Positions 4,103 through 61,985 are shown, counted from the first letter of the stretch. The stretch: 64,000 bases of DNA from Nitrospira sp. (GCA_029194675.1 JARFXP010000001.1:558001-622000); one strand, 5' to 3'. Program-made: numbers and translations. Notes: a model not told the origin generated them from the sequence alone.

Positions 4103-4178
4103 GCCGAGGTAGCTCAGTTGGCAGAGCACAGCCCTGAAAAGGCTGGTGTCGACAGTTCGATTCTGTCCCTCGGCACCA
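4103..4178 (+). tRNA. tRNA-Phe (GAA)
   Basis: 76 nt with encoded CCA. Acceptor GCCGAGG pairs with CCTCGGC; D-arm AGCTC/GAGC; anticodon stem CAGCC/GGCTG with loop CTGAAAA, giving anticodon GAA (Phe); T-arm GACAG-TTCGATT-CTGTC; discriminator A then CCA. Its 3' 20 bases are repeated at 13572-13591, so it is the attachment gene of the element that follows, and integration leaves the tRNA intact. Confidence 0.96.
4159..4178 (+). repeat. attL: 20-bp direct repeat at 3' end of tRNA-Phe
   Basis: GATTCTGTCCCTCGGCACCA, identical to 13572-13591. It covers part of the T-arm, acceptor stem and CCA of the tRNA, the usual crossover site of tyrosine integrases. Confidence 0.9.
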
Positions 4179-4246
4179 TTTTCCATTCTTCCTTTGCGAA
4201 TCAAATAGTTGAATACCGCTCATACCGGAAGTAGCTAATAAAAAGC

Positions 4247-5401
4247 TTACGCGCCGAACAGTGCCCCCAGTTTCGTGGCGGCATCGCGCTGCATAGAAGG
4301 CAGCGCATGAGCATAAATCTCGAGCGTAATGCTTACCTTTTTGTGGCCGAGCCGTTCCGACACCACCTTGATAGGAATCCCTGCTTTCAGCATCAAGGTG
4401 GCAGCCGTATGACGGAGCCCATGGATCGTAATCGGCCGGACCTTCGCCGCCTTCACGAGTTTGGAGAATTCCCGTTGCCCGAGGTTATTGGCTGACAGCG
4501 GCATACCGAACGGGGGTTGATCATAGGCGAAGATCAACCCATAATCCTGATAGGTATTTCCCGCGAGCAGCTTGATCTCAGCCTGAGCCGCCTTCTGTTT
4601 CCTGAGCAGCACAAGCGCTTCCTGTGAAAGATCGATCGTGCGAGGCTTCTTATTTTTTGGAGGGCCAAAGATTGGCACAGGCCACCGTTTGATCAATTGT
4701 CTCATCACCGCGATTTTGCCAGTCTCAAAATTCAAATCAGCCCACTTAAACCCACACAGCTCTCCTTTTCTCGCTCCAGTCTCAAGCGCTAGATGATAGA
4801 ATGCCGCCTGTCGCGGCCCTGCAGCCTTAGCCGTGTCCAGAAACGCCCGCGCCTCATCGATGTCCCAACATTGCTCCTGGATTTTTTCAGGATCATCCTT
4901 CGCGCGCGGCTTATTCATCACCAAACGAGCCACGTTGTCTCGAATCAGCTTATAACGAACGGCGACAGCCAGCGCGCCAGAGAGCACGTTCTGATGATTT
5001 TCTAGGGTCTTCTGGGCAAGCTTGCTTCCCTGGTAGTACGCCTCAATGTGATCCGGTCGAAGCGCACCAATCGCATGGTGCCCAAGATGTGGCTTCAGAT
5101 GTTTGTTAATGATGCTGCGGTACGTTTCATAGGTCCGAAGAGCATTCGATGGTTTCACGGCGGTATCAAGCCACCGGTCTAGCCAATCGCAGAGGAGGAT
5201 CTTGGAAGGCTCAATGACGTCCCCTCGATGATACCGATGGAGCAGATCGTTCAGATGTTTTTCCGCCTCCTTCTTCGTGCCAGTACAACTGAACCACTTC
5301 TGCACTCGCTTGAGCAGCCCTGTCTCTGGATCTCTTCGGCGGCCCAAGTCCAGAACAATGCTCCAGCTTCCATTATAGCGTTTGACCAGGTGACCTCTCA
5401 T
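4247..5401 (-). CDS. Tyrosine-type site-specific integrase
   Basis: 384 residues, normal for phage and island integrases. The N-terminal arm-binding part is residues 1-65, the core-binding SAM-like domain about 70-165, and the catalytic domain about 175-375. Visible catalytic residues: Arg211 (ETGARKGEL), a Lys in the beta-hairpin near 252 (PKNKKPRTIDL), His327-x-x-Arg330 (HGLRHTAATLM), His353 (LGHKKVSITL) and nucleophile Tyr363 (EIYAH). The gene ends 68 bases from the tRNA-Phe end and reads towards it, the usual position for the recombinase of a tRNA-integrated element. It should catalyse integration and excision at the 20-bp repeats, probably helped by the AlpA-like protein at 12159-12368. 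Confidence 0.95.
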   Translation of the reverse strand: MRGHLVKRYNGSWSIVLDLGRRRDPETGLLKRVQKWFSCTGTKKEAEKHLNDLLHRYHRGDVIEPSKILLCDWLDRWLDTAVKPSNALRTYETYRSIINKHLKPHLGHHAIGALRPDHIEAYYQGSKLAQKTLENHQNVLSGALAVAVRYKLIRDNVARLVMNKPRAKDDPEKIQEQCWDIDEARAFLDTAKAAGPRQAAFYHLALETGARKGELCGFKWADLNFETGKIAVMRQLIKRWPVPIFGPPKNKKPRTIDLSQEALVLLRKQKAAQAEIKLLAGNTYQDYGLIFAYDQPPFGMPLSANNLGQREFSKLVKAAKVRPITIHGLRHTAATLMLKAGIPIKVVSERLGHKKVSITLEIYAHALPSMQRDAATKLGALFGA

Positions 5402-5431
5402 TTTTTCTTCCCTCGTTTGAACTCGGGATCA

Positions 5432-6166
5432 TCAGACTCGCGTCATCACCACACGTGCCAGGAAGGCATTCAGATACGCTGGTCTACGTTGAAAAAAATT
5501 TAGATCCTTTGCAGCGAGAACTTTCGATGCTCGCTTCTTACCCAGTAGATTCCAGCTGCCATCTGAATTAAGGGTGCACACATCGTAGAACCATTGGCCA
5601 TTGGTCACTGTTCCGCGACTACGCACGCTTCCTCTAATCGTACGGGCCCTTTTTGCAGAAGCTTTTTTTCTGCAAGAGGCCGGCGCGCCATGCAATGATT
5701 CCTTCGTACATGGACTCAAGATTTCGTTATCGGCAAAGGAGTAATGCGTCGTATCTCCAAACACAATATGGTCGAGAACCCTTATCCCGAGGATGTCACC
5801 CGCCTCTACCAATCGCCCAGTGAGAAACTTATCCTCTGAGCTTGGAGTGGGATCACCAGACGGATGATTGTGCGCAAGGATCACTGCAGCGGCATTTTGA
5901 AGAATGGCCGCCTTGAATACTTCACGAGGGTGAACGACGCTCAGTGTCAACGAACCGACCGACACGACGTGGAAACCAATAGGTTTATTCTTAGCAGTGA
6001 GACTCACGACCGCAAAATGCTCGCGATCGAGTCCGGTGAAGCCATCACGGAACACATTAAAGAATTGTTCTGAGCATGAAATAGGCGCTGAAGCGAACCT
6101 GGAGTGTGCATCTTTCACAAGGGAAATGGATAACTCAGGAACCGTCTGTTTGATGTGAGAATCCAT
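5432..6166 (-). CDS. RadC-family JAB-domain protein with extra C-terminal region
   Basis: About 244 residues. The central JAMM-like motif is complete (HNHPSG then PTPSSED) inside a RadC domain spanning roughly residues 35-150. A basic, low-complexity C-terminal part (KKASAKRARTIRG) and a short tail of unknown function follow. RadC-like proteins are common on mobile elements; despite the name a DNA-repair role is not established. The frame is open to a GTG at 6229, but a good promoter (TTGACT, 16 bases, TATAGT) places the transcript start near 6221, and AAAGG lies before ATG 6166, so I chose that start; ATG 6214 is also possible. The integrase gene follows after 30 bases. Confidence 0.82.
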   Translation of the reverse strand: MDSHIKQTVPELSISLVKDAHSRFASAPISCSEQFFNVFRDGFTGLDREHFAVVSLTAKNKPIGFHVVSVGSLTLSVVHPREVFKAAILQNAAAVILAHNHPSGDPTPSSEDKFLTGRLVEAGDILGIRVLDHIVFGDTTHYSFADNEILSPCTKESLHGAPASCRKKASAKRARTIRGSVRSRGTVTNGQWFYDVCTLNSDGSWNLLGKKRASKVLAAKDLNFFQRRPAYLNAFLARVVMTRV

Positions 6167-6227
6167 CTGTGACCGCCTTTCTGAGACAGCGAGCCGCTGA
6201 TATGGATGCTTCATGACACCAGACGAC

Positions 6228-6255
6228 ACTATATGAGATTAGCTAGCTAAGTCAA
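6228..6255 (-). promoter_or_regulatory. Sigma-70-like promoter for radC/int
   Basis: Minus strand TTGACT (6255-6250), 16-bp spacer, TATAGT (6233-6228). The spacer contains the palindrome TTAGCTAGCTAA at 6239-6250, so a protein bound there would block it. Divergent from the promoter at 6261-6289. Confidence 0.65.
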
Positions 6256-6273
6256 GTGCATTGTCTAGCTAAG
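6239..6273. promoter_or_regulatory. Paired TAGCTAA operator-like sites between divergent promoters
   Basis: TTAGCTAGCTAA at 6239-6250 and CTAGCTAAG at 6265-6273. The two TAGCTAA cores start 22 bp apart, about two helical turns, and lie in the spacer or -35 regions of two divergent promoters. CTAGCTAAG recurs at 9160-9168 before the terminase genes. The adjacent ribbon-helix-helix gene is the obvious candidate binder; that is inference. Confidence 0.5.
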
Positions 6274-6289
6274 CTGACCGTGGTATGGT
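6261..6289 (+). promoter_or_regulatory. Sigma-70-like promoter for the ribbon-helix-helix gene
   Basis: TTGTCT (6261-6266), 17-bp spacer, TATGGT (6284-6289). The expected transcript start is close to 6296, almost on the ATG at 6295, so the message is either leaderless or starts translation at ATG 6337. Confidence 0.45.
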
Positions 6290-6294
6290 CCGTC

Positions 6295-6489
6295 ATGCGA
6301 AAGAGGAAAACCCAAGACGCTGAATCGGGGGCATGGATGCTGCGAGAGGTACCCCGAGACCTCATGGACCGGATGAAGATTGCCGCCGCCGTCCAGCGGA
6401 CGACCGTGAAGGCTCTTTTGCTTCAGTTGGCTGAAAACCATCTAGCGGACCTTGAAAAAAAGGGCCAAATCCCTAAACATCGACCGTGA
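6295..6489 (+). CDS. Small ribbon-helix-helix (Arc-like) regulator
   Basis: 64 residues, the only rightward gene in the element. A short strand (AWMLREVP) is followed by two helices (RDLMDRMKIAAAVQ and TVKALLLQLAENHL), the order of an Arc/CopG-type ribbon-helix-helix domain. Such proteins bind DNA as dimers through the strand and often repress their own divergent promoter. The promoter region here holds paired TAGCTAA sites, which fits. The start is uncertain: ATG 6295 keeps the whole strand, while ATG 6337 has GGGGG upstream as a ribosome-binding site but shortens the strand. The frame also opens further upstream at 6256, but that lies before the promoter. Confidence 0.7.
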   Translation: MRKRKTQDAESGAWMLREVPRDLMDRMKIAAAVQRTTVKALLLQLAENHLADLEKKGQIPKHRP

Positions 6490-6536
6490 TCGGTGGACGA
6501 TTGACTCTGCTTCGACGCTAGAAGCCAACCTATTTT

Positions 6537-8510
6537 TCACTTCCACCCTGTGACAAAGTTCACTCCGCGACGCTTTGGCTGGTTGTAGTGCTTGACGAAA
6601 CTCGTCTCTTCCTGCTTCGCCGGTGCTGGTTCCTGCACGACGGCCACGGGCTGCATGTCTTCGCCTGTTTCGTCGTCGACTGGAATTTCCACTTGTGGGA
6701 TGTAAGCCGCCTGCTTCGCCGCCAGCTTTTCGAAGTTCGGATTGAGAAGCGTCATCGCTGCGAGGTTGTACACTTTCAGATCGAGGGCTTCATTTCGAGC
6801 CCGCGTCTTGACGTAGTGGTAGCCCTTCTGCACACCTCGATCGTAGATGTTCCGTTTTTCTTCGGCGCCCAGTTGCTTGAAATGTTCCTCGTCGTATTCC
6901 GGACGCATGGGGAAATGGATGTAGCCTGGGCCCGGTTCGATCAGGGAGAGGCGAGCAAACAGGGTGTCTTTTGCTGCCACGGTGCCCACGTGATACAGGT
7001 GCACGGTCGCACCGCGAGGCCTCGTCGGCCGTGGAGGCACGAGCGGTGATCCCTGCTGATTGCTTCCCTTGATGGCATAGCACCGGCCGCGATACCGTCG
7101 CACGTACCAGTAGGCCTGTTTGGTGTGATGGCCCCCGGTGTCGACCACGACGCACTCGACGCGCAGCGCGATGCCACAGGCGTGCGTCCATTTGCGCTGA
7201 AGCCAATCCGTGACATCCTTCCACACCATGGGTTGCGCTGGACTGCCGGGAAACACCCGCTTGGCGATGCTCCAACATTCCTCATCGATCCCCCATCCGT
7301 CGATTTCGACTTCGAGGCGATTGTCCTGGACATCGATCGCGGCGGTCAGCACGAGCACGCCGGCAGGACACTCGGCTTCATAGGTCTCACGGCGCCTGTA
7401 GAGTGCGTCTTCGTCGGCCTTTTCGCCTTTCTCCTCCCACGTCTCAGCCAGGATGGTGTTGATGAACGTCTTGAGTTTGCGCGTGTCTCCGCGCGCGGCT
7501 TCTTCATTTGCGTCGATCCACATAATGGCGAGCTTCGACCACGACAGTTTCCAGCCGTAGGGCTGATAGAGCGCATTAATGTGAAACGACTGGACGGGGT
7601 TGGCGGGATCCTCATGCACCCATTCGCCTTGCTCCAGCATCCAGGTTTTGTGGTGTTCGTCGATTAAATCTAGACAGGACGCGCACCGGTAGGCGGCCCG
7701 GTCCGGTTGCGGGACACCGTCGAAGGTATAGGCCAGCTGCCCCCACTGCAAATGCTGTCGGTGTCCGCACGAAGGACAGGGCACGTAGTAGCGCCCGCGG
7801 CTGCCCTTACAATAATCCGGTTCGATCCGGCTGGTTGCCGCCTCCAGTGGCGTCGAGACTTCGTATTTTTTCGACCGCGAAAAGGTGGCCCTGCGATTGT
7901 CGGCGAGATCGACCGGATGGCCTTCCCCGTTGACATCAAGCGGGCAGCCGTCGACCTCGTCGATCAAGATATGGCGCGCGCTGGTGAACCGCATGCCGAT
8001 GGCGCTGTTGCAACCGATGAAGTTCAGAAAGCCGCCCATGAACTGTTTTGAAAACGTATAGTTCCCGCTGTCGCGCGAGCGGGCCTCTTTCACCTTGTCC
8101 TTGAGGCAGGGCGTGAGCTCTAGCATGGGGTCCACTTTTTCTTTTGATATTTTCTTGGCGAGGTCTTTGGTCGGTTCGAAGACGAGCATAGCGCCGATGG
8201 CGCGCTCGATGATGAAGCCCATCCAGTTCACGCCGATCTGCGTGCCGCCGATTTGTACGCATTTCATGAAGACGACGGTGTCGCAGGGGTGCGACGGCGA
8301 GAGGCAGCGCATGATCTCCCGGAGGAACGGTGTGCGGCTGGTCCGCCAGCGGCCCGGCTCGGCCACGGTGCTCGGGAGTTGTACGTTGGCGTCGGCCCAT
8401 TCGTCGATGGTCTCCTCAGGATCAGGTTGCAGGCCTGAGCACAGCGCCAGCGGGTAGCATTCCCTGTCCGCACAGAGTTCGAATAGATCATCGTCGACAC
8501 AGACCGTCAT
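6537..8510 (-). CDS. Phage terminase large subunit, GpA family
   Basis: 657 residues, the normal size for lambda GpA-like packaging motors. The N-terminal ATPase part includes TVVFMKCVQIGGTQIGVNW (a deviant Walker A region as usual in GpA) and a Walker-B-like HILIDEVDGCP. A zinc-binding cluster follows (PCPSCGHRQHLQW with CASC downstream). The C-terminal nuclease part contains TAAIDVQDNRLEVEIDGWG and VVVDTGGHHT. It pumps DNA into procapsids and cuts it. It overlaps the small-subunit gene by 4 nt (ATGA). The finding of terminase and capsid without a portal is what makes the element unusual. Confidence 0.93.
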   Translation of the reverse strand: MTVCVDDDLFELCADRECYPLALCSGLQPDPEETIDEWADANVQLPSTVAEPGRWRTSRTPFLREIMRCLSPSHPCDTVVFMKCVQIGGTQIGVNWMGFIIERAIGAMLVFEPTKDLAKKISKEKVDPMLELTPCLKDKVKEARSRDSGNYTFSKQFMGGFLNFIGCNSAIGMRFTSARHILIDEVDGCPLDVNGEGHPVDLADNRRATFSRSKKYEVSTPLEAATSRIEPDYCKGSRGRYYVPCPSCGHRQHLQWGQLAYTFDGVPQPDRAAYRCASCLDLIDEHHKTWMLEQGEWVHEDPANPVQSFHINALYQPYGWKLSWSKLAIMWIDANEEAARGDTRKLKTFINTILAETWEEKGEKADEDALYRRRETYEAECPAGVLVLTAAIDVQDNRLEVEIDGWGIDEECWSIAKRVFPGSPAQPMVWKDVTDWLQRKWTHACGIALRVECVVVDTGGHHTKQAYWYVRRYRGRCYAIKGSNQQGSPLVPPRPTRPRGATVHLYHVGTVAAKDTLFARLSLIEPGPGYIHFPMRPEYDEEHFKQLGAEEKRNIYDRGVQKGYHYVKTRARNEALDLKVYNLAAMTLLNPNFEKLAAKQAAYIPQVEIPVDDETGEDMQPVAVVQEPAPAKQEETSFVKHYNQPKRRGVNFVTGWK

Positions 8511-9061
8511 GCAGACTCTTTCATTAATGGATTGGCGGCCAAGGCCTCCAACGCTTGCCGAATTTCTTTCGTCAATAAGTCGTGAATTTTCTCCGGATCA
8601 GTTTCCGCCGCGATGACGCCGGCAAGGCGGTACGGAAGGTTCAGCATGGCGTCACGTATCATCCTGCCCAGGCGGAATGCATCGGTCTTCACCTGTTCCT
8701 TTCCTACCAGTTGCCCGGTGCGCGTCAAAAATTCAAGCTCGCTAAGTTTAGCTCGAAAAACCCGTTCCTTTGTTTGCGCTTCGGAAAACGATTGAATCTT
8801 GGGATCGTTCGGATTGTCACCACTCGGAGGAGTATCGGGATCGTTGTCGTCTCCAGATTGTCCATAAATGGGCTTGGAAAATGGCACTCGGTCGGCATGG
8901 CGTGCCGCTTCGCGCCGACGGTCCGCATCGGCAAAATCAAACGGTTCCATGTACTCAATGCCGACTCTTCGGAGGGCCTGCGAGGCAGAAGCAACCGAAA
9001 TGCCGGCGTGCTTCGCATATCGTGTGAGATGTCCGGGCCTAGATTGCTTCCCTGGCAACAT
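8507..9061 (-). CDS. Terminase small subunit-like DNA-packaging protein
   Basis: About 184 residues. The N-terminal part is a helix-turn-helix (HLTRYAKHAGISVASASQAL), as in Nu1-type proteins that recognise the packaging site. The middle is a low-complexity acidic linker (GDDNDPDTPPSGDNPND). The C-terminal half is helical (SEAQTKERVFRAKLSELEFL, RLGRMIRDAMLNLP), matching the oligomerising part of phage small terminases. The 4-nt overlap with the large subunit gene supports this. The start at 9061 (MLPGKQS) has AAGGAA upstream; the frame opens at 9109. It may decide which DNA is packaged, so in a satellite it would redirect packaging. Confidence 0.75.
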   Translation of the reverse strand: MLPGKQSRPGHLTRYAKHAGISVASASQALRRVGIEYMEPFDFADADRRREAARHADRVPFSKPIYGQSGDDNDPDTPPSGDNPNDPKIQSFSEAQTKERVFRAKLSELEFLTRTGQLVGKEQVKTDAFRLGRMIRDAMLNLPYRLAGVIAAETDPEKIHDLLTKEIRQALEALAANPLMKESA

Positions 9062-9159
9062 TAGAAATAGATTCCTTTCCACAATTGGCCCAGGAGCGTT
9101 CCGAATCAAAGCGCGATGGATATCATTCGCCTCGTTTCGATCGTTGCTCCATAGCTTTA

Positions 9160-9177
9160 CTAGCTAAGTTAACTAAG
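9160..9177. promoter_or_regulatory. TAGCTAA-type site upstream of the terminase genes
   Basis: CTAGCTAAG at 9160-9168 followed by TTAACTAAG. The 9-mer is identical to the site at 6265-6273 in the RHH promoter region. It lies about 100 bases before the terminase small-subunit start, so it may be a second operator of the same regulator. I see no strong promoter boxes here. Confidence 0.4.
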
Positions 9178-9256
9178 GCTATATTCAGAAGCAGCGACTA
9201 GCTTGTTTCTGCGTAGATGCGACCCGCAATGTTTTTTATTGAAGAGAAGGACCCCC

Positions 9257-9445
9257 TTAACCTCTAATCTCTGCCAGCGCTGCACTGTCTTCGCCCAAGG
9301 AATAAATGCGCTTGCCTTCTGTCTCGCGCACCGTCGCTTTTCGATGTGAGCAATGCCACTCGAACCGACCGTTTACAAACGTTGGCGCGAGCTGCCTGCA
9401 TTTTGGGCACAAAACTGTGAATAGACCTCTTAACTCTTGTGGCAT
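9257..9445 (-). CDS. Small zinc-ribbon-like protein
   Basis: 62 residues. Cys pairs LCPKCRQL and WHCSH form a likely treble-clef or zinc-ribbon site (CxxC ... CxH). Its ATG overlaps the stop of the previous zinc-ribbon gene (TAATG), so the two are translationally coupled. Its function is unknown; phage proteins of this size often help packaging or control host transcription. Confidence 0.6.
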   Translation of the reverse strand: MPQELRGLFTVLCPKCRQLAPTFVNGRFEWHCSHRKATVRETEGKRIYSLGEDSAALAEIRG

Positions 9446-9699
9446 TACATCCCTCTTTCAGTGTTTGTGATATCCATGCGAAAGAGCGTGGAGCGCTGGC
9501 GTTTCGCCCAATTCGGCATGGGTAGCATGCGCGCAGCAACCACACGTGACCTGAGCGAGCGATAGCACCTATCACACAAATCATGATGGGCTGGCCGCTC
9601 CGCGCCATGCCTACGGAGTCGCGCCTGGTTGCCTCCGGCTTTTGAGAATGTGAGATGGATGGATCGCCCGCATTCGGAACAATGTCTTGTGCGCTTCAT
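9445..9699 (-). CDS. Small zinc-ribbon protein
   Basis: 84 residues. CSECGRSIHLT near the start and LCDRCYRSL about 30 residues later give a CxxC-CxxC zinc ribbon; the rest is basic (RSRVVAARMLP, NWAKRQRST), suggesting nucleic-acid binding. The start ATG 9699 has AAGGAG nine bases ahead and overlaps the stop of the upstream 47-residue gene by 4 nt (ATGA). The gene is in the capsid-terminase operon. Exact role unknown. Confidence 0.65.
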   Translation of the reverse strand: MKRTRHCSECGRSIHLTFSKAGGNQARLRRHGAERPAHHDLCDRCYRSLRSRVVAARMLPMPNWAKRQRSTLFRMDITNTERGM

Positions 9700-9839
9700 G
9701 GTCGCCACTCCTTCACGTGGAATTTCTTCCTCTTCGGCGTCAGCTCTTTGGCGGAAACGACCACCACAGGTTGAGGCGTGTGTGTGGTCGTCCCACCCCA
9801 GTCACGAACCGAAAAGCGTGAGTCATCCCAGCCCATCAT
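9696..9839 (-). CDS. 47-residue protein coupled to the capsid gene
   Basis: The protein MMGWDDSRFSVRDWGG... ends in KKFHVKEWRP. Its ATG overlaps the capsid stop (ATGA) and its own stop overlaps the next start (ATGA), so it is a real link in a coupled chain. It has no recognised domain. The central part is Thr/Val-rich (TTTHTPQPVVVV) and the C-terminus is basic. It could be a capsid accessory or a head-completion fragment; that is a guess from position only. Confidence 0.6.
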   Translation of the reverse strand: MMGWDDSRFSVRDWGGTTTHTPQPVVVVSAKELTPKRKKFHVKEWRP

Positions 9840-10966
9840 GATAAATTCGTGCTCACGACAAAGGCTTGCGGATAGCGGACCAGCACATCGACCATCCACA
9901 TCGCCCTGATGCCGACTTGCGCCTGGTTGAACCGAGTACCACTGTGATCCATGGCGAGCTCGAGCACACCCCAATCCGCAATCACGACTTCTCCCCACGA
10001 TCCAAAAATCAAGTTACCGGAAGCAATCTGCTCACTGGACATCGATCTTAACCCGACGCACTGCCCATCCATCATGTTGCCGGTCCAGAGTGGCGTGTCG
10101 GTACCGGAGAACCGCTGCCGCTGCATGAGCACTGACGCCCCGGCCGTATTGGTGACAAATCCAGGGTTACTCTTAATCGCATTCGCTCCACCAGCGGTGG
10201 ACACAAACGCCAGGATCTTGGCGTAGGTGGCCGAGGCGGCATCCTGCCCGCTCGCGATGCCCGGAACATTTTTGATTCCCAAGGGCTGCGCCCCGCCGAG
10301 GCCATGGATCACAGCATTGTCCACTCCGTCGATGGCCACGTCGGCTGCCAAATCGGCCATGACGAACTGCTCCGCAGATGGCGAGGCTTGCCGAAGAAGT
10401 TGCTCAGAGACATCCGTAACAGCAATGACCGTTTTCGGCGTCATACTGAGCTGGCCCAAATTCTGATCTCCAGCCGTCACGCTTGTCCCCTCGCCGCTCT
10501 GCCACGTGACCGTAGGTTTCCCCGTCTGCCTGATCGCCACACCATTGCCTACGAGGCCAGAGATGGTCCGCGCGCCCATCGCCAAGGCGACGGAGCGGTT
10601 GCGGAGGATGTCGATGAAGCCCATATTTTCGACGTTGACGAGATACCCGCCTTTGCCTGGCACCTCCGTGGACAAGGAACGCCGCGCAGCCGCCAGGTCC
10701 AAAGGCATCTCCAAAACTTCAGCAGGGACGAAAATGGAAGTGGTCAGCTCGCGACCGAGCTGCTTGGCGACAGCATTCGAAGCCTCGATCTCAAACGCCG
10801 CCTGCTCGCGAACTAACGCACTATTCATCGCGCCCGGCCGCAATGCCGAAATGGCCTTAAACATCGACCATCGCCGAGTTTCTTTTTTCGTGAGGCCGAT
10901 TCGTGGCACCACTGTTTCCAGTAAATTCTGAACCCGCTCGACCGTTGTTCTCTCCAAGACATTCAT
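9836..10966 (-). CDS. HK97-fold phage major capsid protein
   Basis: About 376 residues. An N-terminal helical stretch (about 1-80) is followed by the HK97-type body: GKGGYLVNVENMGFIDILRN (N-arm and spine region), the P-domain core TPKTVIAVTDVSEQLLRQ, DVAIDGVDNAVIHGLGG, and a C-terminal A-domain with FGSWGEVVIADWGVLELAM. It should form the icosahedral shell. The start at ATG 10966 has AGGAG six bases ahead and follows the previous stop by one base; the frame opens at 10996. No separate protease gene is visible nearby, so maturation is unclear. It is coupled to a 47-residue gene downstream by a 4-nt overlap. Confidence 0.88.
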   Translation of the reverse strand: MNVLERTTVERVQNLLETVVPRIGLTKKETRRWSMFKAISALRPGAMNSALVREQAAFEIEASNAVAKQLGRELTTSIFVPAEVLEMPLDLAAARRSLSTEVPGKGGYLVNVENMGFIDILRNRSVALAMGARTISGLVGNGVAIRQTGKPTVTWQSGEGTSVTAGDQNLGQLSMTPKTVIAVTDVSEQLLRQASPSAEQFVMADLAADVAIDGVDNAVIHGLGGAQPLGIKNVPGIASGQDAASATYAKILAFVSTAGGANAIKSNPGFVTNTAGASVLMQRQRFSGTDTPLWTGNMMDGQCVGLRSMSSEQIASGNLIFGSWGEVVIADWGVLELAMDHSGTRFNQAQVGIRAMWMVDVLVRYPQAFVVSTNLS

Positions 10967-10967
10967 C

Positions 10968-11381
10968 TCATTTCTCCTGGTTAAGAAAGTTTCCACTTTC
11001 GAGCCAGTCTAAAATAATCGCGCACAGCTGCATCATTTCCATTGGAAGGTCGATGAGAGGTTCGTTGTTCACATGTTCGTGTGCTTGCTCGTAGGTCTTG
11101 AGCAGGATGTAGGCAAGTTTGCCCGGTTCGAGCTTGATCTTCTCCGAGAGTCCAGATTTAAATACTTGTATTAGCGAAAACTCCAGCACGGCCAGCGCAT
11201 CCCCGCGCTTTCTAGCCCGCCACCGACGGACTTCTTCGAGATCGACACGGCTGCCTCGCCCGCGCCCGACTTCCCCAAGTTCCACAGTGGGGCATCCGGC
11301 AATAATGTCTCGTCGCAACGTGGACACATTAATTCCAATGGCGCGAGCTGCCTCTTTGAGACTGACACCTACTGCTTTCAC
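10968..11381 (-). CDS. HTH DNA-binding protein upstream of the capsid gene
   Basis: 137 residues. Residues 5-55 form a winged helix of the Nu1/excisionase kind (VSLKEAARAIGINVSTLRRD, then RVDLEEVRRWRA). The C-terminal half is helical (GLSEKIKLEPGKLAYILLKTY). Its stop is one base before the capsid start, and it overlaps the upstream small gene by 4 nt. It could be a packaging specificity protein or a late regulator of the capsid operon. Confidence 0.65.
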   Translation of the reverse strand: MKAVGVSLKEAARAIGINVSTLRRDIIAGCPTVELGEVGRGRGSRVDLEEVRRWRARKRGDALAVLEFSLIQVFKSGLSEKIKLEPGKLAYILLKTYEQAHEHVNNEPLIDLPMEMMQLCAIILDWLESGNFLNQEK

Positions 11382-11605
11382 GCCGCTGCCTCGCCGGGTT
11401 GGTCGAAGACAAGATACGAGCGATCGTTGTGAAAGCGCCTGAGCAGTTCATCAAGAAAATCTTCTCCAGCGGGATTGGTCGACTTCGCGTGGGTTGAATC
11501 ATCGCGGGTCGTGCTGTGGGCTGTGGTTAGATCCGATCGATCGCAGTGAAAGTGATGGAGCAATTCGGTCTGAAATCTGCGTCCGGCCTCCTCGATCGAC
11601 TTCAC
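11378..11605 (-). CDS. Small protein with an internal duplication
   Basis: 75 residues. Two similar segments are visible: ELLHHFHCDRSDL near residue 14 and ELLRRFHNDRSYL near residue 53, separated by a Ser/Thr-rich linker. It overlaps both neighbours by 4 nt, which supports that it is expressed. I recognise no family. Confidence 0.6.
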   Translation of the reverse strand: MKSIEEAGRRFQTELLHHFHCDRSDLTTAHSTTRDDSTHAKSTNPAGEDFLDELLRRFHNDRSYLVFDQPGEAAA

Positions 11606-12156
11606 TGGAGACCTCCACGTTTCCTGAATTCTTCAATCACCGATCCCGTACTCTCGAAGCCGCTATTTTCTTCCCTACTGACAGCTTTCCTTCCATCGTA
11701 TCTTTCACCGCTATTCACAGGATTCACAGCCCTCCCCTCCGAAGAGGAAGGTAAGGGATGGTTAGGATAGGGAAGGGAGGGACCGGATACCGATCCCGCA
11801 TCGGATTCTTGTTTAGCCCCTTTTGGTTCCTGTCTTTTATGATATTTCCAGTAGTTCCGTGCGCTGTAAGCGGCTGGCGAACCATCCGGAAGCGTCTCAC
11901 TGACCACTAGCCAACCTTTGGCTACCATCCAGTCAACCTGCCGCTGGATGCTGGCTGACTTTTGGCGGGTGGTCCTGGAGAGTCCCGCCAGCCATTGGCT
12001 GGAGGTTTTCAAAAAGTTGTCCCCACGATCGAGAACGATCATGACCTCGATAAGAGTCCTCAAGGCCCGGTCTGAAAATTTGTCGGTAAATTCCCAAACC
12101 TCAGGGTCGCTATTGATGAGCTGTGAGATCGGACTCCACCGCTTTGGACTGGGCAT
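11602..12156 (-). CDS. Replication-type winged-helix protein
   Basis: 184 residues. The first 110 residues look like a winged-helix domain of phage replication initiators or replisome organisers (DKFSDRALRTLIEVMIVLDR, then SASIQRQVDWMVAKGWLVV). A Ser/Pro-rich, probably disordered tail follows. It lies 2 bases after the AlpA-like gene and overlaps the next gene by 4 nt. Its position after the Xis-like gene matches replication genes in satellites, but no primase or helicase motif is visible, so the function is uncertain. Confidence 0.5.
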   Translation of the reverse strand: MPSPKRWSPISQLINSDPEVWEFTDKFSDRALRTLIEVMIVLDRGDNFLKTSSQWLAGLSRTTRQKSASIQRQVDWMVAKGWLVVSETLPDGSPAAYSARNYWKYHKRQEPKGAKQESDAGSVSGPSLPYPNHPLPSSSEGRAVNPVNSGERYDGRKAVSREENSGFESTGSVIEEFRKRGGLQ

Positions 12157-12158
12157 CT

Positions 12159-12368
12159 CTATAGCGCATCGACGCCGGTCGGACGAAGCGACTCCTTAGG
12201 AATTCTGAATTGCCGGCCGAATTTGCGAGCAGGAATCTCTCCGCTCCGGAGCCGGTCGTACATTGTCGATCGACTCAGGCGCAGAAACGTGCGAGCTTCT
12301 ACGACCGTCATCCAGTCCGGAAGATGATCAAACTTAAAACTGCGCGGTTTGGACGAATGCCTTTTCAT
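12159..12368 (-). CDS. AlpA/excisionase-like HTH protein
   Basis: 69 residues. A MerR-like HTH_17 domain covers MTVVEARTFLRLSRSTMYDR then RSGEIPARKFGRQFRIPK, the hallmark of AlpA/Xis proteins. It opens the main leftward operon; AAGGAG lies before the ATG. Such proteins bind att sites to help excision and often activate satellite operons. Confidence 0.78.
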   Translation of the reverse strand: MKRHSSKPRSFKFDHLPDWMTVVEARTFLRLSRSTMYDRLRSGEIPARKFGRQFRIPKESLRPTGVDAL

Positions 12369-12487
12369 AACTCTCCTTCCTTGGGTTGTTAGATATTAAA
12401 AACAACCGTTAAGTGCTGGAGAGTTTATACGTGAGTAAGAATATGTTGGGCTATGTGCAGAACGGTGCTTTTCTCGACAGGGGCGAA

Positions 12488-13315
12488 CTACCTAGATAGT
12501 AATCGACGGTAGGTGAGGAGCTTTGTTCTAACCTGAGCGGTAGTAATTGGTCCAGTATAAGAATGTCTTCCGACTGCGAAGTCCGGCGCTTTACCTTCCG
12601 TGATGGCCTTTTCCGCTCCGCATGTGATTTCCTTTATCTTATCTTCAGAAAAGTCGAAGTAGCCTAGCAGGTCGCGTGCGTCTTCATGATGGACGCTTGT
12701 GTCATATCCTCGCCTAATGGCTTCTTCCATATTTTCTTTGTCCGTTTTCTTGGTATAGACGTTCAATGCCGCTACCACCTCATTTCGTTGCTTTGCGCGA
12801 ATCTGTCTTTCAATTCGTCTATTGATCAATTCGGCAAGTTTGGCATACCCTATCTTCCCACGAGAAGCGACTCGTTTCGCTTCGAGCATTTCAAAGAATC
12901 TACCAGCACCATCATTCCAGAATCCCTGCGATTGCTTGAGCTGACGCACATACTCGCTGACAATAGGCCAGTTGGCAATATACTTGTTCCTGGTCATCCT
13001 ATCATCGATGTGAATGTACAGACGGATAAGCCTTCTCTTGTTTCTCAGATCGGCGCCATCTCGCTCATTCCTAAGGAGAAAACACACTCCTTGAGACTCT
13101 TCCCATAGCTCTTTCTTACTCTGTTGTCGCACGGCTTTTTTCACATCATCGCTGGCGTTCTGCATCGGCGGTGGTTCCCATTTTTTACGTCGAAGGAATT
13201 CCGCGATGGTCTGTCGCGAGCGGAGTTCAGCTATGGAGGGTGGATCTCCCTCTATACACTTACACCGGATGTAGGCATCTGAAAGAAATTTCTTCTGGCG
13301 CAGCTTCTTAAGCAA
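12488..13315 (-). CDS. Unknown 275-residue protein at the right end of the element (possible cargo)
   Basis: No family recognised. The protein is strongly basic and helical, with many Lys/Arg clusters (KKLRQKKFLSDAY, RRIERQIRAKQRNEVV) and no signal peptide or membrane segment. Its base composition is visibly lower in GC than that of the structural genes. It begins with TTG, supported by AGGAGG six bases ahead. It lies between the AlpA-like gene and the right attachment repeat, the place where satellites often carry accessory genes such as phage-defence functions. That role is only inferred from position. Confidence 0.6.
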   Translation of the reverse strand: MLKKLRQKKFLSDAYIRCKCIEGDPPSIAELRSRQTIAEFLRRKKWEPPPMQNASDDVKKAVRQQSKKELWEESQGVCFLLRNERDGADLRNKRRLIRLYIHIDDRMTRNKYIANWPIVSEYVRQLKQSQGFWNDGAGRFFEMLEAKRVASRGKIGYAKLAELINRRIERQIRAKQRNEVVAALNVYTKKTDKENMEEAIRRGYDTSVHHEDARDLLGYFDFSEDKIKEITCGAEKAITEGKAPDFAVGRHSYTGPITTAQVRTKLLTYRRLLSR

Positions 13316-13749
13316 GGTCCCCTCCTGTCAGGGGTTCCTGCTGTGGAAGAGAGGCCCACGCCGGGCAGGAGCCGGCGCGTCACAGCGCGGATCAGGCGCT
13401 GCTTAGGGCCTCAGGTGTTCTAGAGGTTCACGTTTCTTTCGTCAAGGTAGCTAACGCACAGCTAACGAACCGACCAGCACGTGGTAATACCGGCCATTCC
13501 TCAGGCCATCTAAACCCGTACAAAATAAGCATACATGGTACTGGACGTACCAGGACAACACCCATGCTCTGGATTCTGTCCCTCGGCACCACATTCCAGT
13601 CCAGCTGCTACAGTTGCCCTGATGATGTCAGCAGTACCGGTAACGTCCGCCCGGCTCAACCACCGGCAAGGAATGGCCATGAGAGCTGTGTGTGCTTGGT
13701 TTTGACAGGGGCTGACAGGTGGTTTGGGAGCGGATTCGGCCGGATCTCT
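13316..13749. other. Intergenic right end of the element and host flank
   Basis: No gene is supported. It holds the right attachment repeat at 13572-13591, a tandem AGCTAACG pair at 13449-13456 and 13460-13467 (TAGCTAA-like, possible recombinase arm sites), and a short inverted repeat TGGTAC-TGGAC-GTACCA around 13535-13552. Confidence 0.5.
13572..13591 (+). repeat. attR: 20-bp direct repeat of the tRNA-Phe 3' end
   Basis: Identical to 4159-4178. Only this piece of the tRNA is present; the upstream tRNA part is missing, as expected for the distal end of an element integrated at the tRNA 3' end. Confidence 0.9.
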
Positions 13750-27800: not shown

Positions 27801-30800
27801 GATACGAGTCGTTGCCCTGCCCGCCGATCAACCGGTCAGTCCCCAACCCGCCATCGAGTGTGTCGTCGCCCAGTCCGCTCCGAACCACGTCGGCACCGTC
27901 ACCGGCAACAACCCGATCCACCGTGTTCGTGCCGGTGATCTGATCATCGCCGTCAGTTCCGGTCAGATCGAACCCCCCGGCGAGCAGTTGCTCGTATGTT
28001 AAAACACTTCCGCCACTAAAGCGGAAAGACTCCACCGTGCGTAGGCCGAGCACATTCTTTTGCTCGAACGTATCGAGTTGAATCGCATCGCCGCTCGTCC
28101 CGACTCGAATCAGCAGATCACTCTGATTGGGATGAGACTGATCGGAAGTAAGATTGAGACGGAGATCAGTTGATGTGATGCCGGTCCCGAACACAACCTC
28201 GTTGCCTGCCTCGGCTGATGCGGAATCGATGATCGTGTCGACGCCGTCGCCCAGGTTGAAGAAATAGGAATCGTTGCCTTCTCCACCTTCAAATCGGTCG
28301 TTGCCGAGCCCACCGCGGAAGCGATCGACCAGATCGGTGCCGGATAAAAAGTCGTCGAACTCGGTGCCGTCGATATCAAAGCCACGTGCCACCAGATCAG
28401 CAAAGGAGAGCACCGTACCATCCGCAAATTGAAACTGCTCGATCGTCTGCGATCCGAACACATCGAAGGCAGAGCCTGACTGAATCCCGTCTGAACCGCC
28501 TCCCACGGTAATAACGATCTGCCCAAACTGCGAGGAGAGCGAGACCGAATTGGACGTGATGCCGCTGCCGAACACGACCGTATCGGTATCAGCATCAGAA
28601 CCGGAATCAAACACAGAATCGAGCCCATCTCCTATATTGAAGCGATAGGTATCGCTCCCGTCTCCACCGAGCAATTGATCGTCCCCGACGCCGCCAATCA
28701 GTACATCATCGCCTGCCTCGCCTTCGAGCGAATCATTCCCAGCATCCCCGTTCAGTACATCGTTGCCATCGCCGCCCCGCATGACGTCGTCACCAGACCC
28801 GCCGGAGATCTGATCGAGCCCACCGTTGCCGAGCAGCACATCGCGTCCATCGCCCCCGTCGATCACGTTGCCGATCGTCCCTCCAATCAGCAGGTCGTCG
28901 CCGGCAAGCCCTCGAATCGTGCGGTAGATCTCTTGGCCATCCAGAGTGTCGAATCCGGCCGTACCCACTAGTTCCAATCCATTCGCAAGTAGCTGGGAAG
29001 ACGTCAACATGGTCCCGTTCGCAAACACGAACTGGTCAACTCCAAGGGATGCCAACTGGTTGCCGGGATCGAACCATTGAATCTCCACCGCATCACCCGC
29101 CCCCCCGGGGCGTAGGACCAGGTAATTAATGGCCGTACCGGGATCTCCCTCCTCCTCGCCGCCTCCACCAGGAATAGTGACTTGTTTGAAACTGAGACTG
29201 AGATTGGCTTGTGAAATCCCCGAGCCAAAGACCAGGCGATTGCCCTCTTCTGACGTGTCCTGGATGGTGTCGAACCCGCCGCCCTTAGCAAAGATATAAG
29301 TATCCTGCCCCGCTTCACCAAACAGCGTGTCGTTGCCGGCGGCACCCATCAATACGTCGTTTCCAGCCCCTGCATTGACCACATCGTTGCCGGCCCCTCC
29401 AAAAATTCGTTCTCCTTGTGACGTGCCGGTGAGCTGATCATTGCCGAGACCTCCCGAAATGCTCAACCCGTTTGCGGCGAGCTGACTGTAGGTGAGGATG
29501 GACCCATCAGAAAATTCAACTGAGTCGATCGGATGGGCCCCATTCAGGTTATTGGTGCCAAAGTTCTGGATCTGAACCGCATCTTCTCCGTTACCGGTGC
29601 GAATCACGAGAGAATCGTTCGGACCCACAGCCGCTATAATGGCATTTGAGCTGATTCCCGCTCCGAACACGAGCCGGTTCCCCTCTCCAGCGGCTTCTTC
29701 GATAACATCAAACCCGTCGCCTAAATCATAGAGATACGTATCTTGCCCGCCTCCACCTACCAGCGTATCGTTTCCACTACCCCCAGCAAGAGTATCGTTT
29801 CCTCCACTTCCTCCGATCTGACCATCCGCGTCACCGACGAGGATATCGTCACCCGCGCCTCCGTCGATCAGATCATCGCCGTCGTCTCCCCTCAGCCCAT
29901 CATTGCCATCGCCACCGAATATCTGATCGTTGTCCTCTTCACCGAAGATTCTGTCGTCGCCAGCATCACCAGCGAGGACATCATCACCCAATCCGCCTTG
30001 GAGTTCGTCGTTCCCTTCTCCGCCAAAGATCGTGTCTGCATCGGCTCCGCCACTCACAAGATCATCGCCTTCGCCGCCGTCCAGTTCATCCAAGCCATCG
30101 CCGCCGATCAGCACATCGCTTCCTTCATCACCGAATACGACGTCGTTACCGCTTTCCCCATCGAACTGATCGTCTCCCTTTCCCGCAACGATCTCATCGT
30201 CTCCTGTGCCTCCAAACCCTACGTCATTCCCCTCGCCACCGACCAAACTATCATTCCCCACCCCGCCATATAGTGCATCGACGCCGGCACCGCCGAGCAA
30301 GGTATCATCACCACCACGGGCAAACAGGACATCATCCCCGTCGCCCCCTTCCAGCCAATCATCCCCTTCCTGAGATGGATCAATACCGTCATCATCCCCA
30401 GACAACAGATCATTCCCCGATCCGCCCAGTAACACATCATCCCCGGCATTCCCATCCAATTGATCATTGCCGGCACCGCCGGTCAGAAAGTCATTGCCGG
30501 GCGTGGTAGGATAAATCAAATTCAGACCTTGCTCCGTGTCTCCAATGAGGACGTCATCCCCCTCACCGCCGTCCAGGAAGTCGTCTCCGCTATCGCCGCT
30601 AAGCGCATCGTTGCCCGCGCCTCCTTCCAGCACATCGTCGCCCGGGTGAAGAACACCCGTGGCATATTGGGTCACATAGCTTCCGTCAGGGTTCCGCTGA
30701 ACAATCTTGCCAGTTGTATAGACATCCCCCCAAAGCACATCATTGCCGGCCCCTCCAAGCAGTCGATCGGCATTTCCACCACCCCCTAAGAGATCATTCC

Positions 30801-51580: not shown

Positions 51581-52970
51581 TGTCAAGCCCAAATAGAAAT
51601 GTCCGGTTTATGTTCCGGCCGCCGCCGGGTGGTGTCCTCGTTCCTGCCGCCATCGCTTGCGCCATGGATGATCCGCCGGCGGTTTGATCGGGCGCTGCGA
51701 TCGGGACACCGCCGTGACCGCTGCCGCCGACACAGGTCGCGCCGCGATCGCGTGAAAGGCGAGCGCCCGTCCGTGGTGCGTGAGCCGCATCGTCCCATCC
51801 ACATGTTCTTCGACCACCACACGAGTGGCGCGGAGATTGTCGTGAACCTGATAGAGCCGCCCTTCATGAGCAATGGTGAAGTCCTTCCGCAGACACCGGG
51901 ATGTCTTGATACACAGGCTTCGCTCCAGCACCTGGGCCGTCGGCTTCGGCCGATGCAGATTGACTGCGTGCGCCGGCCGCACCGCGAACCGGCGGTTGTA
52001 GACCGGCAGATAGCCCTCCAGGAATCGGTTCGCCGCCTCGAAGGTCCCAATCCGTGCGAGGCGCAACTCCTTGACCAGTCGATCCTGGAACGTCTTAAAC
52101 AGCCGCTCCACCCGCCCCTTGGCCTGTGGGGAGTGCGCCGCGATCAGCTCAACCCCCAGCTCATCCAGTGCCCGTCCGAACTGACTCTGGGGTGCCTCCC
52201 CGGCCAGCTGCTCCGCCACCGTGGGCTCAGCTGGCGACTGGTAGGTCGTATGCTTGTCCGCATAGATGGCCAGCGGAATCCCCTGGTGCCGAATGTAGCG
52301 CTGGAAGCTGTCCATCGCCGGGATCGTGCCCTCGTACTCATAGAACCGAGCAAAGACGCGACTGCTCGCATCGTCGATGTAGGCCATCAGGACACCCCAC
52401 GGGCCGCGCCCCTCCAACCAATCATGATGGGACCCATCCAGTTGCACCAGTTCCCCGACATGCGCCTTGCGCGCACGCCACGCGCGATGCGGTCGCTTCC
52501 GGCGTGCGAAATGATCAATCCCCCGCTCCCGCAACCAGCGCCGCAGAGTCTCGTCGCTGACCTCGAGTCGGTGCCGCTCCGTCAACTTCTCCGCCGCCAA
52601 CGTCGGCCCAAAGTCTCCATAGCGTGTCTCATACAGCCGCAGCATCTTCGCCTTGACCGGCTCCGCGATGCGCCGATTCGACGGCTTCCCCCGTCCCCGA
52701 TGGACACGTCCCTGGTCGCCCTCCTCCTTTACCCGCCCAAGAAGGCGCCGGATCTGACGCTCCGTCAGCCGCAACATGGTGCCCGCCTCCTGTTGTGTGA
52801 TCCGCTTGTCCCGCACCTGGCGAATCACATGGATCCGCCGCAACTCCTTGGCACTCATCATCACCCTGTCCTCTCCCACCATCCCGTCCTCCTTTGAAGA
52901 ACGGGCAGTCTATCAACGAAGAGGACATTTCTACTTTGGTGAAACCGGACATTATCATTTTGGGATTACA
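51581..52970 (-). mobile_element. IS1202-like (ISNCY) insertion sequence, 1390 bp
   Basis: Both ends begin TGT (left TGTCAAGCCC; right, reverse complement, TGTAATCCC), followed by near-identical AATGTCCGGTTT blocks, giving imperfect terminal inverted repeats of about 28 bp. A 17-bp target duplication flanks it, and a single transposase gene fills it. TGT ends and a long target duplication are characters of the IS1202 group. The long, exact duplication suggests a recent insertion. Confidence 0.85.
51608..52882 (-). CDS. ISNCY-family DDE transposase
   Basis: 424 residues. N-terminal HTH domains (KRITQQEAGTMLRLTERQIR, TLRRWLRERGI), then an RNase-H-fold core with the DDE acids: first Asp in LVQLDGSHHDWL, second in LAIYADKHTTY, Glu in GRVERLFKTFQDRL. 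The gene appears intact, so the element could still be active. The start at 52882 is the first codon; ATG 52858 (MSAKEL) is an alternative. Confidence 0.9.
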   Translation of the reverse strand: MVGEDRVMMSAKELRRIHVIRQVRDKRITQQEAGTMLRLTERQIRRLLGRVKEEGDQGRVHRGRGKPSNRRIAEPVKAKMLRLYETRYGDFGPTLAAEKLTERHRLEVSDETLRRWLRERGIDHFARRKRPHRAWRARKAHVGELVQLDGSHHDWLEGRGPWGVLMAYIDDASSRVFARFYEYEGTIPAMDSFQRYIRHQGIPLAIYADKHTTYQSPAEPTVAEQLAGEAPQSQFGRALDELGVELIAAHSPQAKGRVERLFKTFQDRLVKELRLARIGTFEAANRFLEGYLPVYNRRFAVRPAHAVNLHRPKPTAQVLERSLCIKTSRCLRKDFTIAHEGRLYQVHDNLRATRVVVEEHVDGTMRLTHHGRALAFHAIAARPVSAAAVTAVSRSQRPIKPPADHPWRKRWRQERGHHPAAAGT

Positions 52971-52987
52971 TTCTTCTTTGAACTCTG
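52971..52987 (+). repeat. 17-bp target duplication, right copy
   Basis: Identical to 51564-51580. Confidence 0.85.
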
Positions 52988-53060
52988 CTGATTGAGCGGA
53001 TCTATCAGCTTGTGATTTTCCGAGGAGCGTTTCTGGTCATTTCGTCACACGACCCTGCGC

Positions 53061-53080
53061 GGGAGGTCGGAATGCCTCCC
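53061..53080 (-). terminator. Hairpin after the four-gene cassette
   Basis: GGGAGG-TCGGAATG-CCTCCC, 6-bp stem, 11 bases past the stop of the 570-residue gene. No T-tract, so weak support. Confidence 0.35.
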
Positions 53081-53090
53081 AGACGCAGTT

Positions 53091-54803: not shown

Positions 54804-54807
54804 GGTG

Positions 54808-59073: not shown

Positions 59074-59083
59074 AAGAATTCCT

Positions 59084-61912: not shown

Positions 61913-61985
61913 AGAACCTGCTCCTTTCTGCCCCCGCTCTGTCGCGTGGCAGGGCCTCCGGTCTGGATACTGCGCCACTCCCCTA

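Follow-up and report, generated by a model that had tools for sequence, protein, structure and literature searches.

The question raised by this locus is how a chromosomal element that encodes its own capsid and terminase, and neither portal nor tail, could be propagated. The element occupies positions 4159-13591 of a 64,000-nt stretch of Nitrospira sp. DNA (GCA_029194675.1, JARFXP010000001.1:558001-622000), which as a whole is called the window here. We consider it very probable that the element is an integrated Nitrospira phage satellite that replaces the shell and the packaging motor of its helper phage and borrows the rest. A preliminary description of this DNA had already proposed a phage satellite, and that reading is well supported by the absence of a portal, a phylum-wide family of relatives, a conserved architecture and purifying selection. 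The description had dealt with a single element, a scope that proved too narrow, since the element belongs to a phylum-wide family with interchangeable late-gene cassettes. This family has apparently not been described before, and its members apparently swap shell, packaging and tail-length genes.

A precise insertion at tRNA-Phe

The element is integrated at a tRNA-Phe(GAA) gene (4103..4178, plus strand; ARAGORN and Rfam). The final 20 bases of this gene form the left attachment (att) site, attL (4159..4178), and a second copy, attR, lies at 13572..13591, with the two copies 9413 bp apart. The att repeats reported earlier are thus an exact 20-bp pair. The comparison of tRNA-Phe loci in relatives that had been proposed as a check uncovered an uninterrupted site in a genome of the same genus (L186): the left flank of the window (to 4178) stops at base 1501 of L186 and the right flank (from 13592) picks up at base 1502. 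Because the flanks abut there, the element is a precise 9,413-bp insertion. Its genes lie mostly on the minus strand and include a tyrosine integrase (384 aa; 4247..5401, minus strand; PF00589, 1.6e-28) and an AlpA-like helix-turn-helix (HTH) regulator/excisionase (69 aa; 12159..12368, minus strand; PF12728, 3.1e-12).

The 3' half of tRNA-Phe is repeated in several Nitrospira genomes as 40-48-bp pieces that lie 4-80 kb from the intact gene (for example at 36 kb in G289, and as two pieces within 17 kb in G395), a pattern suggestive of an integration hot spot used by other islands. The genome that carries the element also holds a 65-bp piece that is 91% identical to the tRNA-Phe region (G000 contig 1, 1250367-1250431), perhaps left behind by a further integration event.

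Capsid and terminase are encoded, portal and tail are not found

Three virion genes on the minus strand could be assigned with confidence. The HK97-fold major capsid protein (386 aa; 9836..10996) matches PF05065 (1.7e-27) and phrog_617 (1.7e-61). The terminase large subunit TerL is of the lambda gpA type (657 aa; 6537..8510; PF05876, 7.9e-78; PF20454, 5.7e-86; phrog_15, 6.6e-221), with ATPase and nuclease domains both present and intact. The small subunit TerS is Nu1-like (about 180-200 aa; 8507..9109; phrog_57, 4.7e-21); its real start probably lies near 9061, because most homologues align from about residue 15-24. Integrase, AlpA-like protein, HK97 capsid and GpA-type terminase, all claimed earlier to be present within 9.4 kb, are therefore all matched by Pfam or PHROG.

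No portal, connector or head-completion family was matched in Pfam and PHROG scans of the element's proteins, and the search for such homology among its small proteins, also proposed earlier, found nothing. The sole match labelled as tail, of the tail-fibre family phrog_2857 to the 87-aa protein orf87, had an E value of 0.08 and was treated as noise. For a more sensitive search, hidden Markov models (HMMs) were built from the nearest phage contigs, with 45 sequences for the portal, 38 for the connector and 56 for the protease, and run against all six-frame segments of at least 25 residues in 15 elements. The portal and connector models gave no match in any of the 15, the window element included; the top portal score belonged to a 26-aa fragment (E 0.12) and was taken as noise. 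The protease model matched L125 alone, which carries a fused protease. For the relatives, pooled PHROG scans gave the 25 most frequent of 58 and of 65 families, among which a weak portal match need not appear. Size points the same way in the window element: besides integrase, TerL and capsid, no assigned open reading frame (ORF) exceeds 275 aa, and the largest remaining one, at 275 aa, is therefore too short for a portal. There is no HNH endonuclease family among the Pfam matches of the element's proteins, nor are alpha, sid or psu families among their Pfam and PHROG matches. These three are genes of P4-like satellites, which carry their own replication and capsid-size functions. The claim that portal and tail are missing has thus been borne out by Pfam, by PHROG and by the portal HMM in six frames. 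Portal or tail homologues, or remnants of a decayed prophage, would have counted against a satellite; tests for them found none.

A family of portal-less capsid elements in Nitrospirota

Searches covering 396 phylum genomes and 175 family genomes, together with regions drawn from them, recovered many relatives; the hosts of the named copies are Nitrospira and other Nitrospirota. Twelve further repeat-bounded elements of 8.4-9.8 kb carry portal-less capsids. All 13 capsid-bearing elements end in direct repeats, which in most cases are 40-65 bp of tRNA 3' end. The order seen in the window, HTH-capsid-small-TerS-TerL, recurs inside 44-bp att repeats in L123, which comes from a different family of the phylum.

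The capsid-bearing elements fall into a tight size class. The window element measures 9.41 kb, and the others 9.48 (L113), 9.16 (L117), 9.38 (L118), 9.23 (L119), 9.40 (L120), 8.61 (L121), 9.81 (L123), 9.09 (L125), 9.39 (L126), 8.38 (L129), 9.10 (L130) and 9.50 kb (L149), giving a mean of 9,226 +/- 378 bp (n=13). Six bounded capsid-less elements span 10.5-18.3 kb and do not overlap with them (P=3.7e-5; still P=4.2e-4 without the two longest capsid-less elements). Three elements have weak repeats (L118 and L128, 16 bp; L127, 21 bp), and only L118 among these entered the size test. Without a repeat of at least 15 bp to fix their ends, the tRNA-Glu elements L110, L146 and L223 were excluded from this test. 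When genome length is derived from capsid architecture by a published relation, it comes to 8.94 kb at a triangulation number of T~2.49 and 11.78 kb at T=3, with wide intervals (PMC7762592). The simplest reading of the size class suggests a small capsid of the element's own and of fixed size.

Late genes as interchangeable cassettes

To judge from the gene sets of family members, cassette exchange involves the genes for capsid, TerS, TerL and tape measure. Capsid, TerS and TerL stand together in the window element and in L123; L119 combines a capsid with a TerL of another family, whose homologue is found in L130; L113 and L117 have capsid and TerS; L126 and L149 capsid and tape measure; L110 and L111 TerS and TerL; L225 TerS plus tape measure; L146 and L230-L232 a tape measure alone. 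In L118, L120, L121 and L129 no late gene was recognised beyond the capsid. L149 matches the window element along orf75-HTH137-capsid-orf62 (48, 64, 34 and 40% identity) and carries a tape measure in place of the window's TerS-TerL. In L230-L232, whose integrases are 55-57% identical to that of the window, a tape measure is present and neither capsid nor terminase was detected.

A second element, L146, resides in the same genome at tRNA-Glu (G000 contig 1, about 1,598,001-1,618,000). Its backbone (integrase, RepA-like protein and two coiled-coil proteins) matches that of L110, a tRNA-Glu element of genome G043. A stretch of ~3.4 kb holds TerS-TerL in L110, whereas in L146 it holds a Nu1-like HTH protein (84 aa; PF07471, 30.1 bits, cut-off 30) and a tape-measure-like protein. 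The latter, of 754 aa, has Pfam matches below cut-off and owes its label to a related protein of L126, for which PHROG gave matches (phrog_8462, 3.1e-29). To the left of L146, the neighbouring region contains another integrase-like ORF, and elements may be stacked at this locus.

The TerL of L119 belongs to phrog_2/Terminase_6N and adjoins the capsid gene, and that of L130 was assigned by homology; these elements have therefore acquired terminases of at least two families. L126 encodes, in addition to capsid and tape measure, a short protein that matches the start of the central tail fibre J (phrog_31, 1.1e-12). A comparable short protein, similar as judged by eye, stands beside capsid and tape measure in L152, a viral contig of 18.8 kb. 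Each cassette is apparently aimed at a different step of helper virion assembly.

Candidate packaging signals

Just upstream of TerS lies a conserved, mostly non-coding block (9055..9228, minus strand). Two satellites with different backbones and different tRNA integration sites, L110 and L117, share it at 72-73% identity over 158-175 nt, and L111 matches part of the L110 block. A comparison with the corresponding upstream regions of phages L002 and L049 did not reveal the block. Lambda has its cos site immediately ahead of the TerS gene, and by its corresponding position the block is a candidate cos/packaging site.

Directly upstream of the capsid gene, a Nu1/TerS-type HTH protein of 137 aa (HTH137; 10968..11381, minus strand) is encoded. 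Its AlphaFold2 model (predicted local distance difference test score, 80.8) is closest to TerS DNA-binding domains (best VIA Z 9.2-7.7) and more weakly resembles RppC (6hlk; Z 5.1 across 53 residues, profile E 1.1), a protein by which phage-inducible chromosomal islands redirect packaging; a profile match to the lambda Nu1 DNA-binding domain reached E 0.014. HTH137 is 63% identical to its counterpart in L113 and 64% to that in L149. Its profile strongly matched six genomes, each with a capsid element, and also L152, where the match precedes a 396-aa capsid protein on a contig that also encodes a tape-measure-like protein. With scores that amount only to a lead, HTH137 is a candidate packaging-redirecting protein.

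We wondered whether such elements need to be packaged at all. Their capsid, terminase or tape-measure proteins might instead poison phage assembly in a dominant-negative manner, as part of an unpackaged interference or defence element. That each cassette touches one assembly step, that capsid-less and terminase-less members exist, and that no helper was found would all suit such a role, and PLE satellites do restrict their helper at tail assembly (PMC12987554). The block shared beside terS, however, points to packaging of the element's own DNA, and an intact TerL with ATPase and nuclease domains, the integrase and AlpA, and the narrow size of the capsid-bearing elements argue in the same direction. 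PADLOC showed no defence family save a weak HTH match. We therefore regard an unpackaged interference element as unlikely.

Descent from phages and selection

Related phages are represented by 72 IMG/VR contigs with capsids 56-79% identical to that of the window, and capsid, TerS and TerL of the window element are 50-76% identical to those of phages L002, L003 and L009. TerL is 72% identical to that of satellite L110 and 73-74% to those of L002 and L009; a scan of the genome contigs with the window TerL alone gave no match. In 56 of 63 cases the phage capsid ORF is 571-793 aa long, with a protease domain of about 270 aa fused N-terminally. The window capsid is without this fused domain; it matches phage capsids (76%) only past the protease and aligns to most of them from about its residue 28-33. 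Where contigs were long enough and genes placeable, the phage order was TerS-TerL-connector-portal-protease/capsid, whereas in the window the capsid gene is upstream of TerS-TerL.

In the TerL tree, the window pairs with satellite L110 (100/99), with phages L002 and L009 joining next, L111 pairs with phage L003, and L112 with phage L049. The tree forces at least four changes between satellite and phage, and by this branching pattern TerL has been captured repeatedly from different phages. The capsid tree contains several satellite-only clades and places the window capsid inside a phage clade with L002 and L003. Some satellite capsids are therefore old, and others, such as that of the window, were taken from phages more recently. 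The genes compared between satellite copies are under purifying selection: the ratio of nonsynonymous to synonymous substitution rates (dN/dS) is 0.107 for the L113/L149 capsids and 0.12-0.16 for TerS and HTH137 between satellite copies. For TerL of the window and L110 it is below about 0.07, a value that assumes dS=3 because dS is saturated.

A former phage that lost its portal and tail genes would also show this likeness to L002, L003 and L009, and a genome without helper prophage. Yet simple deletion from a phage cannot yield the window's gene order, and the same portal-less set recurs in L123 of another family of the phylum. Capsid ORFs stay open within satellites, purifying selection was seen where copies could be compared, and satellite-only clades and a tight size class exist. 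On the strength of gene order, selection and family we reject a decayed prophage as highly improbable. No more credit is due to the idea that the element is a published capsid-forming phage-inducible chromosomal island (cfPICI) that merely looks incomplete: it has an integrase, AlpA, a capsid and both subunits of the terminase, but the defining portal, protease and connector (PMC10690885) are absent, and the same HMMs were negative in the other bounded members tested, save for the fused protease in L125.

Helper and proposed life cycle

The search for a helper in this genome used three portal families and single proteins. A look for a helper prophage in the same genome had been proposed earlier, and this search found none. 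The three families are also not found in most host genomes of the family of elements, and the three portals that were found in host genomes belong to the prophage-like regions L122, L124 and L131. With no portal of these families in the genome, the helper probably arrives by infection and is not a prophage of the same host. In a cfPICI strain with 17 prophages, none mobilised the cfPICI at detectable frequency (PMC11389934), so that it is nothing out of the ordinary for a satellite to lack a resident helper that matches it. The best helper candidates are phages of the L002/L009 type, because both TerL and capsid match.

The satellite resides in tRNA-Phe, where its insertion is observed. Following infection by an L002/L009-type phage, AlpA and integrase would excise it for replication, and it would make a protease-less capsid protein, TerS, TerL and the Nu1-like HTH protein. 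Portal, maturation protease, connectors and tail, of which satellite copies are absent, would be supplied by the helper. The satellite's TerS and TerL would recognise the satellite-specific cos block that precedes terS, and a small capsid would be filled with ~9.4-kb genomes of unit length, as proposed on account of the shared block and the tight size class. Helper tails would then complete the particle. A wider proposal, to which we give somewhat less than an even chance, is that the ~9.2-kb Nitrospirota satellites form a large family, use their own protease-less, portal-less capsid proteins to build small shells of fixed size that are seeded by the helper portal, and trade late-gene cassettes. 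Each satellite would then interfere with assembly of a shared helper at a step of its own, even where several satellites inhabit the same cell.

Several points weigh against a helper-dependent satellite. Portals of PF05136, PF04860 and PF05133 are absent from this genome, which is 99.2% complete, and a lytic or absent helper has to be assumed. The satellite is known here from its genes, and the candidate cos is a sequence block known by conservation. The size contrast compares 13 with 6 elements, and the two groups were recovered by different queries. A helper with a fused protease-capsid would have to process the satellite capsid as well, and no description of a satellite that makes a capsid but neither portal nor protease was found in the literature examined.

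Further genes of the element and its surroundings

The remaining genes are small or accessory. Next to the integrase gene, a RadC-like JAB-domain protein is encoded (265 aa; 5432..6229, minus strand; PF04002, 6.8e-42). A 77-aa protein (6256..6489, plus strand) gave no match in the family scans, has relatives in L119, L146 and L230 (46-53% identity) and resembles small regulators. Between TerS and capsid lie a zinc-ribbon protein (62 aa; 9257..9445, minus strand; weak PF12760) that is conserved in satellites, with 39-46% identity in L110, L111, L113 and L149, and the CxxC protein orf87 (9445..9708, minus strand), 47% identical to a protein of the L118 element. The 184-aa protein orf184 (11602..12156, minus strand) is possibly of a replication-initiation type; it is 38-53% identical to proteins of satellites L112 and L126, and no viral relatives of it were found. 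The 275-aa protein (12488..13315, minus strand) had no family match at E 0.01 or better.

Elsewhere in the window, local GC skew is strong at 29001-31000 (-0.21 to -0.33, against roughly -0.1 in most neighbouring sequence), and GC content rises from about 0.56 to 0.59-0.64 at 52001-64000, possibly a region of different origin.

Comparison with known satellites

Like cfPICIs, the element is integrated, has an AlpA-type regulator and encodes its own HK97 capsid, TerS and TerL, and it would use helper tails. cfPICIs also encode portal, maturation protease, connectors and an HNH nuclease (PMC10690885), none of which was found in the element, and it is only 9.4 kb long. The gene order had earlier been likened to that of capsid-forming satellites, a likeness that does not hold: cfPICI portal, protease and connectors are all missing, and the capsid precedes TerS-TerL. 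Lacking these three, the element is not filed as a cfPICI. Proteobacterial phage-inducible chromosomal islands use Rpp, which binds TerS and redirects packaging; HTH137, which resembles a TerS DNA-binding domain and, more weakly, RppC, may hint at a similar role in the element. Those islands use the helper's capsid and TerL, whereas the element encodes both. The Streptomyces satellites MulchRoom and MiniFlayer have their own capsid and terminase, but also encode a portal, scaffold and head-to-tail adapter (PMC10690885).

Phage-inducible chromosomal island-like elements (PLEs) of Vibrio cholerae likewise replace virion parts in part. Their chimeric tails contain tape-measure proteins of their own, and putative tape measures are also present in some cfPICIs (PMC12987554), so that a satellite tape measure as such is already known. 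The tape-measure members described here may act in the same way, and the set of capsid, tape measure and short protein in L126 and L152 recalls the chimeric-tail genes of PLEs. PLEs differ in that they remodel the helper capsid (PMC10945586), and in their hosts; the two were compared by description only. Phage-inducible chromosomal minimalist islands (PICMIs) are also very small satellites integrated in the host chromosome. The abstract of PMC10803314 describes no capsid-remodelling genes for them, whereas the element encodes capsid and terminase. Assignment to PICMIs, which by that description have reduced gene content and no capsid genes, was ruled out on this ground. Tycheposons of Prochlorococcus have been named as a further proposed satellite family (PMC11389934).

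In the open-licence literature examined we found no description of own capsid and terminase without portal or protease, nor of cassette exchange. No report joining Nitrospira and phage satellites was found there either, in agreement with the earlier suggestion that such an element would be new for this bacterial group. In the literature examined, some satellites take their capsid from the helper and the others encode a complete head with its portal. Satellites that had retained capsid and terminase but dispensed with portal and protease would demonstrate that exchange of the shell does not depend on the portal vertex, and nature would thereby have provided a test of how capsid size is set. The swaps of capsid, TerS, TerL and tape measure on related backbones form a clear series for asking which single late gene suffices to redirect a helper, and the family adds satellites to Nitrospira, which are important nitrifiers.

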